From Azospirillum cavernae (GTDB lineage: Bacteria; Pseudomonadota; Alphaproteobacteria; Azospirillales; Azospirillaceae), in NCBI RefSeq assembly GCF_003590795.1, contig NZ_QYUL01000002.1:372001-436000 (forward strand): DNA of 64,000 nucleotides, written 5' to 3'. The translations under genes were made by a program, and so were the position numbers. A model generated the notes under the pieces. The model had not been told where the DNA came from. It was given only the letters and a program-made list of their open reading frames with translations, and made no database searches. Positions 37,776 through 56,941 of this stretch are shown here, in pieces (within the stretch, counting starts at the first letter, position 1; every line of letters begins with the position of its first letter).

Positions 37776-38990
37776 TCAGTCGTCGCTGAGCGGCAGCGAC
37801 ACTTGCGCGGAATCGGCGGCCAAGCGTTTCGCGCGCTTGCCGCGCATGTCAGCCGCGTCCACCGTCTTCAACGGCACGAAGCCGTCCGGGCGCATGGCGG
37901 TGCCGACGATGGCCTTCAACAAATCGATGTTGGTGCGCTGGACCCGACGGCCACGGCGGACCTGATCGAGGAACTTCGCCGACGGCGTCAGCAGATAGTC
38001 GATGGCGTCGATGCGCTTGCCGACCTTGGTGTATTCCTTGTCGGCCCGATCCAGAATCCCCTCGTCCACCAGGGCGTCCACGGCGGCGGTGACGACGCGC
38101 AGCGTGTCGCGCAGGCGCGACCATTCGTTCATGCCGCTGTTCTTGATGATCTCGTCGGCGCTGATCGCCACCGGCTTGGCCTCATCCTCCGCGCTGTCGC
38201 ATTCGATGGACAGGCGGTTGTAGAGCCAGCGCGACACCGGCGATTTCAGCTTCATCAGCCAAGCATACGAGATGGGCTTGAACTCCAAATCGCGGATGGC
38301 GGCGGAGACCAGCGGGTTGAATTCCAGATAGGTTTCCTCGACGCCGCCGTCCTCGTCCACCAGATCCGGGCGCGAGCGGATCGCCAGCACCGGAAAAGCG
38401 GTCGATTCCAGCAAATTCTGGCCCCGGCTTTTCTTGCCCGGCTCCGGCGCCGGGCCGGTGGAGATGATGATGCGCGAGCGGGCCAGAATGGTCAGCGATT
38501 CGCGGATGTCCTGGATCGACAAAGTGTGATTGACCGCCCGCAGCTCCCGCTGAATTTCATACAGGCTGAAGCGCATCTGCACCTTGTCGTGATTTTCCCC
38601 GGTCAGCGACAGGCGCGAACGATCCATGGCGAGGCGGCGGACGACCTGCTCCACCACCTGCTCGCGTTCGGACGGGAAAATCTCGACTTCCACCAGATCC
38701 GGGGCGGATCCGGGGGCGCGGTCGTCTTTGCGCTGGGCGCTGAGCCGGTCGATACGGGCGGGTTGCACGGTCAGGCGGTAGTTGCGGCCACGGAAGGAAA
38801 ACTCCCGGCGCACCGACTTGATGAAGCTGTCCTTGGTGACGATTTCGCCCTTGTCCTTGGCCTCGTTGTCGCGCGACACGAAAACGAAGCGCGGCGCCAG
38901 ATCATACAGCGCGATCAAATGCGACTGCGAACGGTCTTCCAGCTCAAACAGAATGAGCTGGGCCGCGCTGGTCGGGGCCAATTTGGACAT
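37776..38990 (-). CDS. Replication initiator protein (Rep_3-like winged-helix)
   Basis: 404 residues from ATG at 38990 (MSKLAPTSAAQLILFELED), with GGAG 6 bases upstream; the ATG at 38996 would abut it. The central part has the two-winged-helix look of iteron-binding initiators, including KPISYAWLMKLKSPVSRWLYNRLSIE near residues 240-265 and a later ISADEIIKNSGMNEWSRLRDTL. Similar proteins are found on large alphaproteobacterial replicons; the exact Rep class is my inference. It reads away from an iteron-rich region that begins about 80 bases before its start, the normal arrangement for an initiator next to its origin. Confidence 0.75.
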   Translation of the reverse strand: MSKLAPTSAAQLILFELEDRSQSHLIALYDLAPRFVFVSRDNEAKDKGEIVTKDSFIKSVRREFSFRGRNYRLTVQPARIDRLSAQRKDDRAPGSAPDLVEVEIFPSEREQVVEQVVRRLAMDRSRLSLTGENHDKVQMRFSLYEIQRELRAVNHTLSIQDIRESLTILARSRIIISTGPAPEPGKKSRGQNLLESTAFPVLAIRSRPDLVDEDGGVEETYLEFNPLVSAAIRDLEFKPISYAWLMKLKSPVSRWLYNRLSIECDSAEDEAKPVAISADEIIKNSGMNEWSRLRDTLRVVTAAVDALVDEGILDRADKEYTKVGKRIDAIDYLLTPSAKFLDQVRRGRRVQRTNIDLLKAIVGTAMRPDGFVPLKTVDAADMRGKRAKRLAADSAQVSLPLSDD

Positions 38991-39071
38991 CGTCATCTCC
39001 GAAGGTCGAGAGTCAGCATGGCGCGGCCCGACGCTTCGCGCAACAAAAGCGCCGAATCCCCCCGTCGCGGC

Positions 39072-39154
39072 GTGGAGCGACGGCCCGCGATCATAACGCT
39101 TTTCCCCGCGATGATGGCGCGACAGCCCGCGATGATGGAGCCTTTGCCCGCGAT
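39072..39154. repeat. Origin iterons, array 1 (four copies, inverted orientation)
   Basis: Four 20-base copies start at 39072, 39093, 39114 and 39135, exactly 21 bases apart. The best read GTGGAGCGACGGCCCGCGAT and ATGGAGCCTTTGCCCGCGAT. Consensus in forward orientation: ATCGCGRGC-N5-CTCCAT. Two helical turns per unit put every copy on the same face of the DNA. This is the array nearest rep and probably also autoregulates it. Confidence 0.8.
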
Positions 39155-39192
39155 TCGTCGCCACACCAAGCGAATCGAGAGGCCCTGGCGGA

Positions 39193-39244
39193 ACCGCGAG
39201 CAAACACTCCATCCCGAACGGCGAATCGCGGGCTAAAACTCCAC
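39193..39244 (+). repeat. Origin iterons, pair in direct orientation
   Basis: ACCGCGAGCAAACACTCCAT (39193-39212) and ATCGCGGGCTAAAACTCCAC (39225-39244), both forward. They lie between array 1 and a 170-base stretch (39245-39413) that holds the most A/T-rich, pyrimidine-biased segment of the origin (around 39298-39345), a possible opening site. Confidence 0.75.
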
Positions 39245-39413
39245 AAAAGCCGGTTGCCCGTTCCATCATCCGTTCCGACCAAGGCTGCCCGCCCGAAGAG
39301 TGACAGAAAAAAGTCCCTTTTCTTTGCCCTCTCCCTCCTCTGACCAAGGCTTTGCGGTCATTCCCATCCCTTCATCACCGCCAACCGGGATCAAGCCCAA
39401 GTCACGGCGGCTA

Positions 39414-39609
39414 ATCGCGAGCAATCGCTCCAGGGCATTTGGCCGGGAATCGCGAGTCAAGGCTCTATAGTCGCGACCAAAGACACCAGGAATCCGATTC
39501 GGGCGGGCATCGCGAGCTGCGACTCCATGGTCGCGGGCTGTCGCGTCATGGTCGCGGGCCGTGGCTTTCGGGCCGCGAGCAATGACGTCATAGAGCGCTT
39601 GCCCGCGAT
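39414..39609. repeat. Origin iterons, array 2 (eight copies)
   Basis: Forward copies start at 39414, 39449, 39470, 39509, 39530, 39551 and 39572, with one inverted copy at 39590-39609 overlapping the last. Good examples are ATCGCGAGCAATCGCTCCAG and ATCGCGAGCTGCGACTCCAT; those at 39470, 39530, 39551 and 39572 are more diverged on the right half. Steps of 21 bases dominate, with 35- and 39-base steps. The whole gap 38991-39684 has no gene and is interpreted as the replication origin. Confidence 0.8.
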
Positions 39610-39684
39610 TCGACTTTCCCACCGTCCGCTCCGAATCCTCGCCGCCAATCACCCCATCACGACTGGCGGAGGCCCATCCCCATC

Positions 39685-40467
39685 ATGACCCATGACCCGA
39701 GCGAACACAGCGCCCCGCCCGAACGCGGCGGGACGCGATGGGGGCGTATTCCCGCCTGGTGGCTCGACCATCCGGATTTGGACGCCGACGGGCTGGCCGT
39801 GCTGGCAGCGCTGAGCACCTACGCCGATGAGGCGGGAGTTTGTTGGCCCTCGCAAACCACCTTGGCGGCCAAGCTGAAACGCAGCCGCCCGACAATCAAC
39901 CGCATCGTCGGTCGGTTGGAGGCCATCGGGCTGGTCGCCGTCGAACACCGCAGCGCGGCCAATGGCGGACGTTTGACCTGCCGTTATCGGCTGTCGCTGA
40001 CATCGCCCACCCTGACTCACGCACAAACAGCCCCTGACTCGGCAGCGGACTCCCCCTGTTCAGCCCCGAGTCACGAACAGCTTCAAACAAAACAAATTCC
40101 AGACTCGCTCTCCAAGCGCGAGCGAGCGGCTTCACCGTCAGCCTTGATCGACGAAGTTCCGGACAACTGGTCGCCGAGCGCCGATGACCGCGTTTGGGCG
40201 ACGACCCGCTTTCCGGACGCCGACCTGGATCGCCACGCCGAACTCTTCGTCCGGCGCTGCCAAGCCCACGGCTACCGTTACAAGGATTTTGGCGCGGCGT
40301 GGCGGTCCTGGCTGTTGCAGGATATTCCGGCGCAAACGCGCGTTGCTCCGCCGCCCCGCAAGGACAGCGCCGCCGCGCGTCAAGACGCCGCCGACAACCG
40401 TTTGTCCGCCTGGACCAGCGTCGCCAACCGCTTGAACGCCGCCGTCCCCCCCTCACCCTGGGCGTAA
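39685..40467 (+). CDS. Helix-turn-helix protein, probable replication-accessory protein
   Basis: 260 residues starting directly after the iteron region. The N-terminal winged-helix (HTH_36 type) reads LAALSTYADEAGVCWPSQTTLAAKLKRSRPTINRIVGRLE near residues 40-80. The middle is low-complexity (Ser/Thr/Pro). The C-terminal part FVRRCQAHGYRYKDFGAAWRSWLLQ resembles the DNA-binding tail of DnaT/primosome-like and phage replication proteins. Family membership beyond the helix-turn-helix is not certain. Position between origin and parA supports a role in replication or copy control. Confidence 0.65.
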   Translation: MTHDPSEHSAPPERGGTRWGRIPAWWLDHPDLDADGLAVLAALSTYADEAGVCWPSQTTLAAKLKRSRPTINRIVGRLEAIGLVAVEHRSAANGGRLTCRYRLSLTSPTLTHAQTAPDSAADSPCSAPSHEQLQTKQIPDSLSKRERAASPSALIDEVPDNWSPSADDRVWATTRFPDADLDRHAELFVRRCQAHGYRYKDFGAAWRSWLLQDIPAQTRVAPPPRKDSAAARQDAADNRLSAWTSVANRLNAAVPPSPWA

Positions 40468-40470
40468 AAA

Positions 40471-41112
40471 ATGGCTAACCTGCATTCCCTGCCCACGCCG
40501 CCGACCCGCCCGCCGGTCAGCTTGGCCTTCGACCCGGCCTTGCCCGCCGCGCGGCGCCGCCAAAGCCTGATCGACGCCTTGCCCCCCGCCTTGCGGACGG
40601 TGTTGGACGGCGGACGGATCGACCGACGCAGCCGCTTCACCGAAGACGGCTTCGTCGGCATCGCCGAAGATTGGACGCCACCCGACGACGTCACGCCGCG
40701 TCACGCGCTGTTGGCCCGGCAGGCGCTGAACGAGCTGGTTGTGGAGATTTTGGTTCCCGCCACGCCCAACCATTTGTTGGGCCGGGTTCTGGCGTTGCTC
40801 AGCCATTACCCGGCCAAGGCGACCAGCCCGGATGTGGAGCAATTGCTCGCGATGGACTGGGCCGACGATCTGGGCGAGTTTCCCGCCTGGGCCATCGACC
40901 ACGCCGCGCGGATCTGGCGGCGCACCCGCAAATGGCGGCCCAGCATCGCGGAAATCCGCGCCTTGTGCGAGGATGCCTGCGCCTCGGAACGCGCTCTGGC
41001 CGACCGGCTGCGCGCGGTGATCCAGGCGGGGGAGGCCGCTTCAGGGGGCGCCGCCGACCGTTCCGCGCCGCGCGCGGTTACGGCGACGGTGCGGCGCATG
41101 CCGGGGGTGTGA
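40471..41112 (+). CDS. Hypothetical protein in the replication module
   Basis: 213 residues starting 3 bases after the previous stop, so the two form a unit. No family is recognised with confidence. The segment WAIDHAARIWRRTRKWRPSIAEIRALCEDA near residues 140-170 resembles a motif seen in phage-type replication loader proteins. The C-terminus is Ala-rich and probably helical. There is no signal peptide or membrane segment. The location makes a helicase-loading or origin-associated function plausible, but this is inference. Confidence 0.6.
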   Translation: MANLHSLPTPPTRPPVSLAFDPALPAARRRQSLIDALPPALRTVLDGGRIDRRSRFTEDGFVGIAEDWTPPDDVTPRHALLARQALNELVVEILVPATPNHLLGRVLALLSHYPAKATSPDVEQLLAMDWADDLGEFPAWAIDHAARIWRRTRKWRPSIAEIRALCEDACASERALADRLRAVIQAGEAASGGAADRSAPRAVTATVRRMPGV

Positions 41113-41122
41113 CCGGCAAATA

Positions 41123-41148
41123 CAAAGCTAAGACATGTCTTAACTTTG
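41123..41148. promoter_or_regulatory. 26-bp near-perfect palindrome upstream of parA (parS or operator candidate)
   Basis: The core TAAGACATGTCTTA (41129-41142) is a perfect 14-bp palindrome. It is flanked symmetrically by CAAAG on the left and CTTTG on the right, with one mismatched pair between, giving 26 bases with 24 in register. It lies in the 99-base gap before parA. Such sites serve as partition centromeres or as operators autoregulating par operons. Confidence 0.65.
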
Positions 41149-41211: not shown

Positions 41212-41874
41212 ATGACCATCATCGATGGGCAAGCGCCCTTGAAACGGCTGTTGGTCAACGGCCCGAAGGGGGGCGTCGGCAAGACCACCCTCAGCCGCAA
41301 CATCGCGGTGGCGGCAGCGCTGGATGGCTGCTCCGTCGCGACGCTCGATCTCGACCCGCAGCGCAGCCTGACCAAATGGTTCGCCAAGCGTCCCGACGGC
41401 ATGGCCCCGATCACCCATTTCGAGGCGGGCATGACCCCCGCCGACATCCGCGCCGCGCTGGTCGGCATCAAGGGCTTCGATCTTCTGGTGATCGACACGC
41501 CACCCTCCATCGAGGATCACCCGGAGGAGTTCAAGCTGTTGGCGCTGTCGTCCGACCTGATCGTCGTGCCCACCGGCCAGTCCGACGATGATCTGGATTC
41601 GGTGCGCCCCTGGATGCGCTTTGTCCGCCGTTACGGCAAGAACGCCGCCTTCGTGATGAACCGGGTGAAGCCGCGCACGCGGGGCTTCACCGAGGCGCAG
41701 CGCAAGCTGTTGGGCGATGGGCGGATCTGCCCGGTCGAGGTGCCGGATTACGAAGACATCCAATTCACCGCCGGGCGCGGCCTGGGGCTGCTGGAGTTGA
41801 AGGGCGGCAAGGGCATCGAGCATGTCGCCGGGGTGTGGGCCTTTGTCCGTCACGAGCTGGAGTTGGGGCAATGA
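41212..41874 (+). CDS. parA: ParA-family partition ATPase
   Basis: 220 residues from ATG at 41212 (MTIIDGQAPLKRLLVNGPKGG), with AAGGA 6-10 bases upstream. Deviant Walker A KGGVGKTTLSRNIAVAAALDG is near residue 20, LDLDPQRSLTKW (A' motif) near 50, and LLVIDTPPSIED (Walker B) near 95. It is the short type without the N-terminal helix-turn-helix of P1 ParA, so autoregulation would need the partner protein. The stop overlaps the start of the next gene by 4 bases. It moves replicon copies apart on the nucleoid. Confidence 0.9.
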   Translation: MTIIDGQAPLKRLLVNGPKGGVGKTTLSRNIAVAAALDGCSVATLDLDPQRSLTKWFAKRPDGMAPITHFEAGMTPADIRAALVGIKGFDLLVIDTPPSIEDHPEEFKLLALSSDLIVVPTGQSDDDLDSVRPWMRFVRRYGKNAAFVMNRVKPRTRGFTEAQRKLLGDGRICPVEVPDYEDIQFTAGRGLGLLELKGGKGIEHVAGVWAFVRHELELGQ

Positions 41875-42437
41875 GCGGCTTCAAGCAGGTTTCCAAGGCG
41901 CAGGCCCGCCGTCACATGGCGGTGGATGAGCGGATCGAGCGGATGGCCGAAGCGCCGCTGGATCTGCTGCTGCGCGAAGAGTTCGTCCATGAAATCGCCA
42001 CGCTGTGGCGCAGCGCTCAGGAAAAATTCCTGCTGATCGGGCGCTATCTGGTGCAGGCGCGCCAGCGGCTGCCGCATGGCGAATTTCAGGCGATGGTCGA
42101 AAACGAACTGCCCTTCGGCTATCAGGTCGCCTATCAGCTCCGCATGGTGGCCGAGGCGGTGGACAGCGGGCGTTTGCCGGGCGCCAAGCTGCCGCCCAGC
42201 TACGCCACGGTTTACCAATTGGCGACGCTGACCACCGAACAGCTTCGCTTGGCCGACCAGCGCAACCTGATCCGCCCGGACGTGACGCGGCCCGAGATCG
42301 TCCGCTTCAAGCGCGATTTGCGGGAAACCGCCATGCCCGCGCCCGACCAGCGCGAGGCGTTGATCGCCGAACGCGACCAGTTGCGCGCCCGTCTGGCGGT
42401 GATCGAAGCCGCGTTGGAGTCGTTGGGCGAGGTCTGA
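41871..42437 (+). CDS. Small ParA-partner protein (ParB position, DUF3102-like)
   Basis: 188 residues, start overlapping the parA stop (ATGA). It does not look like ParB: no RXXR/ParB-N box. The middle, FLLIGRYLVQARQRLPHGEFQAMVENELPFGYQVAYQLRMVAEAV near residues 50-95, resembles the DUF3102 helical DNA-binding type. A coiled-coil-like C-terminus (REALIAERDQLRARLAVIEAAL) suggests dimerisation. Gene order and coupling make it the centromere-binding adaptor; the 26-bp palindrome before parA is its natural target. The function is inferred. Confidence 0.7.
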   Translation: MSGFKQVSKAQARRHMAVDERIERMAEAPLDLLLREEFVHEIATLWRSAQEKFLLIGRYLVQARQRLPHGEFQAMVENELPFGYQVAYQLRMVAEAVDSGRLPGAKLPPSYATVYQLATLTTEQLRLADQRNLIRPDVTRPEIVRFKRDLRETAMPAPDQREALIAERDQLRARLAVIEAALESLGEV

Positions 42438-48542: not shown

Positions 48543-49325
48543 ATGACCATTCTCTCCGCCGCCGCTGAACGCCTCCGCATCCGTTCGGGCGCCTATTCCG
48601 GGCAGACCGCCGGGTTGGCGCGCGGGCATGTTCAGGCGAACCTCGCCATTCTGCCCGCCGATTGGGCGGGGGATTTCCTGCGCTTCTGCCAGGCCAACCC
48701 GAAGCCCTGCCCGCTGCTGGCGGTGTCGGAGGTTGGCGACCCGACCTTGCCGACGCTGGGCGCCGGCATCGACATCCGCACCGACGTGCCGCGTTACCGC
48801 GTCTACCGGGACGGCGTGTTGATGGACGGCCCGACCGACATCACCGACCTGTGGCGCGACGATTTCGTCAGCTTCCTGATCGGCTGCTCCTTCTCCTTTG
48901 AGGAAGCCCTGTTGGCCGACGGCGTGCCGGTGCGCCATGTCGAGCTGAACCGGAATGTGCCGATGTACGAAACCAACATCGACTGCGTCCCCGCCGGGCG
49001 CTTCTCCGGCAAGATGGTGGTGTCGATGCGGCCGATGACGCCGCGCGACGCCATCCGGGCCATTCAGATCACCTCGCGCTTTCCCTCGGTCCATGGCGCG
49101 CCGGTGCATTTCGGCGATCCCGCCGCCATCGGAATCCGCGACATCGCCGACCCCGAGCATGGCGAGGCGGTTCCCATCGCGCCGGGCGAGGTGCCGGTGT
49201 TCTGGGCCTGCGGGGTGACGCCACAGGTCGCGATCCGCACCGCCCGCCCGCCCATCGCCATCACCCACAGCCCGGGAACCATGCTCATCACCGATCTTCT
49301 GAACACGCATTTGTCAGTCTTGTAA
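48543..49325 (+). CDS. Putative hydro-lyase (DUF1445, D-glutamate-cyclase-like family)
   Basis: 260 residues. The family is recognised from [26 protein letters not shown] at the N-terminus, [21 protein letters not shown] near residue 115, [30 protein letters not shown] near 160, and FWACGVTPQ with [12 protein letters not shown] at the C-terminus. Mammalian homologues dehydrate D-glutamate to 5-oxo-D-proline. Bacterial members often sit with oxoprolinase genes, as here (pxpBCA follow), so handling of 5-oxoproline or D-glutamate is the sensible guess. The bacterial reaction is not established from sequence. Confidence 0.88.
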
Positions 49326-49375: not shown

Positions 49376-49395
49376 ATCGCGAACAAAGACTCCAT
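49376..49395 (+). repeat. Isolated iteron-like copy
   Basis: ATCGCGAACAAAGACTCCAT matches the origin iteron consensus ATCGCGRGC-N5-CTCCAT at all but one defined position. It lies 30 bases before the family-3 binding-protein start, about 10 kb from the origin. Confidence 0.65.
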
Positions 49396-53643: not shown

Positions 53644-53663
53644 ATCGCGGGCGGGGACTCCAT
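53644..53663 (+). repeat. Isolated iteron-like copy
   Basis: ATCGCGGGCGGGGACTCCAT fits the origin consensus ATCGCGRGC-N5-CTCCAT at every defined position. It lies 118 bases before panD. Confidence 0.7.
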
Positions 53664-54210: not shown

Positions 54211-54789
54211 TCAGCGCCGCATTGGCGCGGCGCGGCGGACCAGACGGCGGTCGAGGTCGCCGGACCCGACCGTCGGTTCGCCCAGGCTCTGCATGGCGAA
54301 GGCGAAGGTGTCCATCACCCGGTCCAGCACGATTTCCTGATCGTCGGGGCGGCGGCTGACCGCGATCACCGCGTAACCGGCGGCGCGCGCCACCGCCGGA
54401 TCGCCGCGCAAACCCCGCACGCCCCAGCCCGACAGCGCCGCCTTGCAGCGGAACAGCTCCGCCGCGAAACCGCTGGTCGATTGGGCGCGGCCAATCACAT
54501 AGGCGGCGGCGACCGCCAGCGGGGCCAGCAGCCCGTCCCAATCCAGGCAATCCTCCCGCGACACCCAAACCCCGCCGACCGAGCAGGCGGCGGGGCCGAC
54601 GGCCTCGCCCAGCCCGGCGCGGAAGGCGCGCAGCGACTCCACGGCGTCAATCGCGGGCATTGGCTCCACCCGTTGCCCGTCCGGCATCAGCATCAAACGC
54701 CCAGCCCACTCGGCGGACGGCGGAAGCTGTTCGGTCAGGCGAGCGATCAGCGCCGCGCGGGCGGCGGCGAAGGGGACGACCTCGGGCAT
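54211..54789 (-). CDS. Hypothetical protein
   Basis: 192 residues, ATG at 54789, ending flush against the convergent panD stop. Family not recognised. It is acidic/hydrophobic with Ala-rich helices, no signal peptide and no clear membrane segment. A central stretch AVAAAYVIGRAQSTSGFAAELFRCKAALSGWGVRG may be a core helix pair. Codon use looks like the neighbours. An iteron-like sequence lies inside it at 54650-54669. Confidence 0.6.
   Translation of the reverse strand: MPEVVPFAAARAALIARLTEQLPPSAEWAGRLMLMPDGQRVEPMPAIDAVESLRAFRAGLGEAVGPAACSVGGVWVSREDCLDWDGLLAPLAVAAAYVIGRAQSTSGFAAELFRCKAALSGWGVRGLRGDPAVARAAGYAVIAVSRRPDDQEIVLDRVMDTFAFAMQSLGEPTVGSGDLDRRLVRRAAPMRR
54650..54669 (+). repeat. Iteron-like copy inside a coding region
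   Basis: ATCGCGGGCATTGGCTCCAC matches the origin consensus except for the last base. It lies in the coding region of the hypothetical gene, so it could be chance or a fixed binding site. Confidence 0.45.
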
Positions 54790-54998: not shown

Positions 54999-55074
54999 TC
55001 CCGGTTAGCTCAGTTGGTAGAGCAGCGGACTGTTAATCCGCTTGTCGCTGGTTCGAGTCCAGCACCGGGAGCCA
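54999..55074 (+). tRNA. tRNA-Asn (anticodon GTT)
   Basis: 76 bases including encoded CCA. Acceptor TCCCGGT pairs with the 3' ACCGGGA. The D-loop reads AGCTCAGTTGGTAGAGC, the anticodon loop CTGTTAA carries GTT, and the T-loop is GGTTCGAGTCC. All arms close. Confidence 0.96.
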
Positions 55075-55077
55075 GAC

Positions 55078-55154
<77 letters not shown>

Positions 55155-56921: not shown

Positions 56922-56941
56922 ATGGAGCGTTTGCCCGCGCT
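56922..56941 (-). repeat. Isolated iteron-like copy (inverted)
   Basis: ATGGAGCGTTTGCCCGCGCT on the + strand, the inverse of AGCGCGGGC-N5-CTCCAT. One defined position differs from the origin consensus. It lies between the divergent phytochelatin-synthase-like and enoyl-CoA hydratase genes. Confidence 0.55.

Follow-up and report, generated by a model that had tools for sequence, protein, structure and literature searches.

The window analysed here, a stretch of 64,000 nucleotides from Azospirillum cavernae (C2:372001-436000), belongs to a 1.79 Mb contig, C2, of a 6.46 Mb genome. Between a probable initiator gene, rep, and a gene for a helix-turn-helix (HTH) protein, a gap of 694 bp (38991-39684) contains 14 copies of a non-palindromic 20-bp site with the consensus ATCGCGGGC-N4-RCTCCAT. 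Outlying copies of this site are present on the same replicon above chance, and sequence comparison indicates that five such sites located in coding regions are kept by selection as DNA, with the base preferences of the origin iterons. We consider it rather probable that this gap serves a large secondary replicon as its iteron origin, with the outlying sites exerting a negative control of its replication.

Fourteen copies of a 20-bp site beside rep

Sites were scored with a matrix built, without the window, from 230 origin sites of 19 relatives. An earlier matrix had 173 training sites, of which about 17 were not from origins (seven that by position are mostly downstream outlying sites, and about ten outlying sites 1.3-1.4 kb before rep). 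The main tests were run with both matrices, and the origin-only results agree with the others or are stronger. The original prediction, an earlier reading of this DNA, counted about 14 copies in the gap, and all 14 are present. With the origin-only matrix, 12 of them score at least 15, the other two scoring 12.4 (39470) and 8.3 (39551); with the earlier matrix, 13 copies score at least 10 and 12 at least 15. When the 694 bp were dinucleotide-shuffled 2000 times, the earlier matrix found means of 0.010 copies at 10 or more and 0.002 at 15 or more, with a maximum of one copy.

Closest to rep are four minus-strand copies (origin iterons 1 to 4) at 39072-39091 (score 24.4), 39093-39112 (17.3), 39114-39133 (27.1) and 39135-39154 (30.0), that is, at -101, -122, -143 and -164 relative to rep. 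Their steps are exactly 21 bp, as had been predicted for an inverted array of four. The two direct copies of the same prediction were recovered on the plus strand, at 39193-39212 (24.3) and 39225-39244 (24.5). After a spacer (39245-39413) comes the second set, with seven plus-strand copies at 39414-39433 (26.0), 39449-39468 (18.5), 39470-39489 (iteron 9, weak), 39509-39528 (25.7), 39530-39549 (21.3), 39551-39570 (iteron 12, the weakest) and 39572-39591 (15.2), and an inverted copy 18 bp further at 39590-39609 (25.8). The second array of eight therefore exists as claimed, but its phasing is uneven (steps of 35, 21, 39, 21, 21 and 21 bp) and its last copy is inverted.

This array is conserved in the genus. 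Eleven to 17 sites scoring at least 10 are found within 900 bp before rep in 28 of 30 regions, window included, and over these 28 regions the commonest same-strand step is 21 bp (n = 145), followed by 42 bp (n = 20). The 21-bp phase is thus real, and cooperative loading of an initiator on one face of the DNA is plausible. The two other regions, G029 and G011, have only one and two such sites, and may have a misplaced rep start or a different site. In closer relatives the block at -164/-143/-122/-101 stands at nearly unchanged places; three of its four copies remain in the A. brasilense type and in G044.

In two replicons that carry a paralogous Rep (54-57%), from A. ramasamyi and A. lipoferum 4B, we found 12 sites in a similar layout with another consensus, AAGCGCGGGCAAA-N-GGGACA, where the CGCGGGC half of the site is retained and the other half exchanged. 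This change does not single out Rep as the binder, because the HTH gene differs in these replicons too. The paralogous origins are located at L189:23364-24130 and L190:23519-24284, and these replicons have a further copy within rep, at +53, and another at about +14 to +16 kb. AZO_p2 is of the paralogous type; according to the accessible text of PMC3899980, p2 of A. lipoferum 4B is lost at high frequency. The idea of an iteron origin beside an initiator gene is supported by the persistence of the array, by a site that differs where the rep module differs and by the resemblance of the low-confidence Rep model to iteron initiators.

In the window, no part of the origin is richer in A/T than the spacer of about 170 bp (43% AT, best 50-mer 52%), as had been noted. 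This does not extend to relatives: the spacer at the same offset has 28-41% AT in 12 of them, and the A/T-richest 50-mer falls in the spacer in only three of 13 regions (the window, G042 and G044). The proposed pair of opposed arrays flanking a central opening region found no support in this comparison, since the spacer is common to few relatives and has no DnaA box (the origin contains no TTATCCACA at up to one mismatch). For the same lack of conservation we rejected the A/T-rich spacer as a general opening element. A scan of the origin for sigma-70 promoters and terminators found none. The cumulative GC skew climbs steadily across the right half of C2 without closing, and the contig may therefore join more than one replicon, by fusion or by scaffolding; as such a skew is unlike that of one circular replicon, it neither supports nor refutes an origin at this place.

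Outlying copies of the site and their conservation

Isolated copies beyond 38991-39684 were absent from the original prediction. With up to one mismatch to the consensus, the site occurs at 16 places in the whole genome, 14 of which are on C2, against 0 for a reversed control. Thirteen of the C2 places lie between 411072 and 428941 (contig coordinates), eight in the origin and five outside. The origin-only matrix finds 23 matches of at least 15 on C2, of which 12 are in the origin, six elsewhere in the window and five farther left, and none in the 1.34 Mb of C2 beyond 440 kb. Within 20 kb of rep, it finds six outlying matches at 15 or more, four of them at 18 or more. The earlier matrix gives 26 matches of at least 15 on C2, including 12 in the origin and four beyond 440 kb (all below 16), and none in 200 kb sampled from contig C1. 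Over 23 genomes, up to one mismatch gave 173 places versus three for the control; among the matches listed, most are in the origin array, and several genomes have single far copies.

The outlying copies of the window differ in strength and context. D1 (40834-40853, minus strand, score 25.3) lies inside orf213, the gene that follows the HTH gene. A weak copy in coding frame (49215-49234, minus strand, 15.9) is unchanged in 12 of 14 relatives, with flanks nearly as conserved, and an intergenic copy is present at 49376-49395 (plus strand, 17.2). Farther from rep are an intergenic copy at 53644-53663 (plus strand, 19.5) with 0 mismatches to the consensus of the original prediction, a copy at 54650-54669 (plus strand, 22.2) within a minus-strand open reading frame (54211-54789), and an apparently intergenic one at 56922-56941 (minus strand, 26.4). 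Among the genomes scanned, G042 and G016 have counterparts of the copies at 53644 (at a similar distance) and 54650, and G042 has a counterpart of that at 56922. Genes for tRNA-Asn and tRNA-Asp (54999-55154) adjoin the copies at 53644 and 54650, which fits a chromid.

D1 scores at least 22 in 20 of 20 regions in which a parA gene accompanies the origin. Over 20 genomes, the orf213 protein is 63-74% identical and its mean synonymous identity is 0.57; at D1 synonymous identity reaches 1.0, degenerate codons being identical wherever the amino acid is kept, so that D1, along with two overlapping neighbours, tops the 199 windows compared. We also took A. ramasamyi as a reference, where orthologues were sufficient (5-14 relatives) for 15 of the 21 genes listed. 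The five outlying matches of at least 14 (earlier matrix) are all in these genes, with 13 or 14 relatives each, and rank for synonymous conservation at 2/199, 4/236, 2/198, 8/506 and 32/237. The Fisher value is 2.7e-5, a somewhat favourable one as the better of two adjacent windows was retained for each site and windows overlap.

A pooled test used the origin-only matrix, 16-20 genomes per site and 74 control windows shifted by whole codons. Its five coding sites, which are five of the seven G033 matches of at least 14, have a diversity of 0.067 versus 0.141 (standard deviation 0.030) in controls, and diversity is lowest at the most informative positions of the origin iteron (Spearman -0.65 versus +0.04, standard deviation 0.18); none of the 74 controls is as extreme in either respect. 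The result holds with four sites, and with all seven matches (Spearman -0.69, diversity 0.071 versus 0.130, 0/74 as extreme).

Possible roles of the outlying copies

In the scheme that we favour, the product of rep, a putative winged-helix initiator, would bind 12-14 copies of the 20-bp site and open the origin, and the four 21-bp-phased copies beside rep probably serve autoregulation too. The phage O-like HTH protein and the product of orf213 would then assist helicase loading. The most likely role of the outlying single sites would be to titrate Rep, or to pair with origin iterons via Rep (handcuffing), a suggestion based on analogy with RctB (PMC3937223 and PMC6090056, in their accessible portions). 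Being duplicated soon after initiation, these sites would reduce re-initiation. Our results suggest that they help control how often a second-chromosome-like replicon is copied. A more far-reaching version, which we put forward tentatively and would not back at even chances, is that a plasmid-type replicon, in the course of its domestication, wrote single initiator sites into resident coding genes around its origin, where selection would hold them through synonymous codons; as an ensemble, they would count or titrate in a distributed manner and so ensure once-per-cycle replication, possibly in connection with the ParA system, which accompanies the origin only in that clade.

The closest parallel is chromosome II of Vibrio cholerae (ori2, RctB), which the available parts of PMC3937223 and PMC6090056 likewise present as a secondary chromosome with an iteron origin and extra-origin sites. 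The initiators differ, RctB appearing only among weak fold-level matches of Rep, and the Azospirillum site is a GC-rich 20-mer devoid of the TGATCA core. The Azospirillum outlying sites, as candidate binding sites, are also closer to the origin, several being inside genes, and show selection across species. A looser parallel exists with datA of Escherichia coli and other DnaA-box clusters, which are initiator sites located off the origin and limiting initiation (accessible text of PMC3937223); those belong to the DnaA system of the main chromosome, whereas here single sites would serve a plasmid-type Rep.

Several observations weigh against an iteron origin controlled by outlying sites. Some sites are poorly distinguished from their surroundings: the G033 site at -9.3 kb is 0.88 conserved versus 0.91 for its flanks, the copy at 49376 (10 relatives) and the G045 matches at -8.8 and +1.5 kb are less conserved than their flanks, and the +7.4 kb site is no better conserved than its flanks with G045 as reference. 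A match in xdhA, about 75 kb away, is doubtful: the codons that it covers belong to a conserved stretch, and the match may have arisen by chance. Sixty column-shuffled versions of the earlier matrix average 4.3 matches of at least 15 on C2, the worst giving 31, and in 12 genomes a looser pattern is, among the matches listed, no commoner genome-wide than its reversed control. Outlying sites at 18 or more, or at 13 or more with a matrix of their own, are absent from seven A. brasilense-type regions whose gene set is the same, so such sites are dispensable for this type of origin. The Foldseek matches of the Rep model have template modelling (TM) scores of only 0.2-0.4 and root-mean-square deviations of 14-18. 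In V. cholerae itself, according to the accessible text of each report, deletion of one extra chromosome II site alone had no growth phenotype (PMC3937223), and mutating three extra RctB sites (VC0643, VC1643 and VC1042-1043) had minimal effects (PMC11711613).

Are the outlying copies, then, chance matches or functionless relics whose conservation reflects protein constraint? The matches no better conserved than their flanks, the xdhA site, which protein constraint could explain, and the loose pattern without genome-wide excess among the matches listed would all be expected under this explanation, and the -10.6 kb match, identical in 12 of 14 relatives, has flanks that are 94% conserved. It is nevertheless very unlikely in our view: synonymous conservation falls near the edge of the site, substitutions track the preferences of origin iterons, and outlying copies cluster near the origin (six versus 0 in 1.34 Mb).

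Alternatively, the outlying copies could form a centromere-like or origin-domain system, in which Rep, bound to dispersed copies, cooperates with the neighbouring ParA. parS sites are isolated, near the origin and often within coding sequence, and are scattered around chromosomal origins; the outlying sites resemble them in placement. Moreover, all 20 regions with an adjacent parA carry at least one outlying site scoring 18 or more in the interval from -11.5 to +8.5 kb (the G012 region extends only to -5.1 kb), versus one of the 10 regions without, where it is single. This co-occurrence may reflect shared ancestry, because the parA regions form one clade, and origin arrays do occur without an adjacent parA. 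parA also has a palindrome of its own, YTAAGACAYGTCTTAR, which lies upstream of it in all 20 parA regions, and the 20-mer itself is non-palindromic. We therefore regard a centromere-like system as unlikely, and rejected the 20-mer as a parS of the adjacent ParA.

In the window, the parA-like gene for a partition ATPase is at 41212-41874 (plus strand; CbiA 1e-13; NF041546 below cut-off, 96.5 versus 180 bits) and is followed by a gene for a DUF3102-like protein, a candidate ParA partner (41835-42437, plus strand; PF11300 6.1e-4, below cut-off); each is found in 14 of 39 loci. The conserved palindrome, here CTAAGACATGTCTTAA, lies upstream of parA at 41128-41143, and is likely a parS or a parA operator. 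In eight parA genomes, among 11 genomes searched, YTAAGACAYGTCTTAR occurs at one place per genome.

Extra-origin iterons as such are already known in V. cholerae, which in the available portions of the cited literature is the one model for outlying initiator sites of second-chromosome replicons. What is new is their association with another initiator on an alphaproteobacterial replicon, their presence as single sites inside genes and the cross-species evidence of selection. A literature search covering titles and abstract openings, with subscription papers mostly out of reach, found no report of iterons or outlying initiator sites in Azospirillum. If our proposal is true, this would be an alphaproteobacterial iteron chromid, beyond the beta- and gammaproteobacteria in which the accessible text of the review PMC6090056 places such chromids. 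The question bears on how plasmid-type origins become second chromosomes replicated once per cycle. About 20 Azospirillum genomes show outlying sites under measurable selection, and the A. brasilense-type and paralogous replicons, with few or no outlying sites nearby, provide natural contrasts. Since several outlying sites are in coding sequence and could be removed by synonymous changes, the titration, handcuffing and segregation models are directly testable.

Rep and the genes next to the array

The rep gene (37776-38990, minus strand) encodes 404 amino acids and has counterparts of 84-95% identity in 21 further genomes of the genus (one a partial match), its closest named homologues being those of A. 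griseum, A. agricola and A. doebereinerae (91-94%). The match of the window Rep to the Pfam family RPA (PF10134) is weak (0.059, below cut-off); seven of 22 Rep homologues reach 0.1 or lower, the best at 0.0012. The structure model is of low confidence (predicted local distance difference test, pLDDT, 55.6), and its top Foldseek matches are iteron initiators. A tblastn search with Rep returned 1270 plasmid records, many of them enterobacterial. The same Rep is carried by the 681,723-bp replicon of strain B510; in this strain, the accessible part of PMC3899980 calls p6 alone a plasmid.

The HTH gene (39685-40467, plus strand) encodes a protein similar to phage O-like replication initiators (phrog_270 2.2e-14, phrog_391 1.5e-13, HTH_36 4.5e-09), and its homologue and that of orf213 adjoin rep in all 39 loci whose gene content was scanned. 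Could this protein, rather than Rep, bind the 20-mers as phage O binds iterons, with Rep acting elsewhere? Its phrog_270 match, its presence in 39 of 39 loci and its divergence in the paralogous replicons would be compatible with such a role. We think this improbable: the sites of lambda O are palindromes, the structure model of Rep looks like that of an iteron initiator, and asymmetric, phased 20-bp direct repeats beside rep fit initiators of the RepE/Pi type.

Plasmids of the latter type (F, R6K, pPS10) carry direct repeats, about 20 bp long, next to the gene for a winged-helix initiator; the Azospirillum locus likewise has such repeats next to rep, whose product is a putative initiator of this fold. 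It departs from them in that its origin showed neither a DnaA box nor an A/T-rich opener that is generally conserved, and in having an O-like HTH gene, orf213 and outlying single sites tens of kb away. In phage lambda-type O/P origins, the O protein gene is followed by a small second gene, an order also seen here with the HTH gene and orf213; the Azospirillum locus differs in its separate Rep and non-palindromic sites. With repABC replicons it shares a large alphaproteobacterial replicon and a nearby ParA. We rejected this class, however: no RepB or RepC match was found among the proteins scanned, and the score of ParA falls well short of the RepA cut-off (33 versus 348 bits). In the accessible part of PMC3899980, the secondary replicons of its Azospirillum strains are of the repABC/parAB kind.

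The product of orf213 (40471-41112, plus strand) has a confident model (pLDDT 85.3) with no match in the PDB at E of 0.001 or lower, and its sequence matches are solely phage families of no assigned function; it is perhaps a helicase loader. In all 39 loci a plasmid-type Rep is accompanied by an O-like HTH gene and orf213, a mixed phage-like and plasmid-like gene set.
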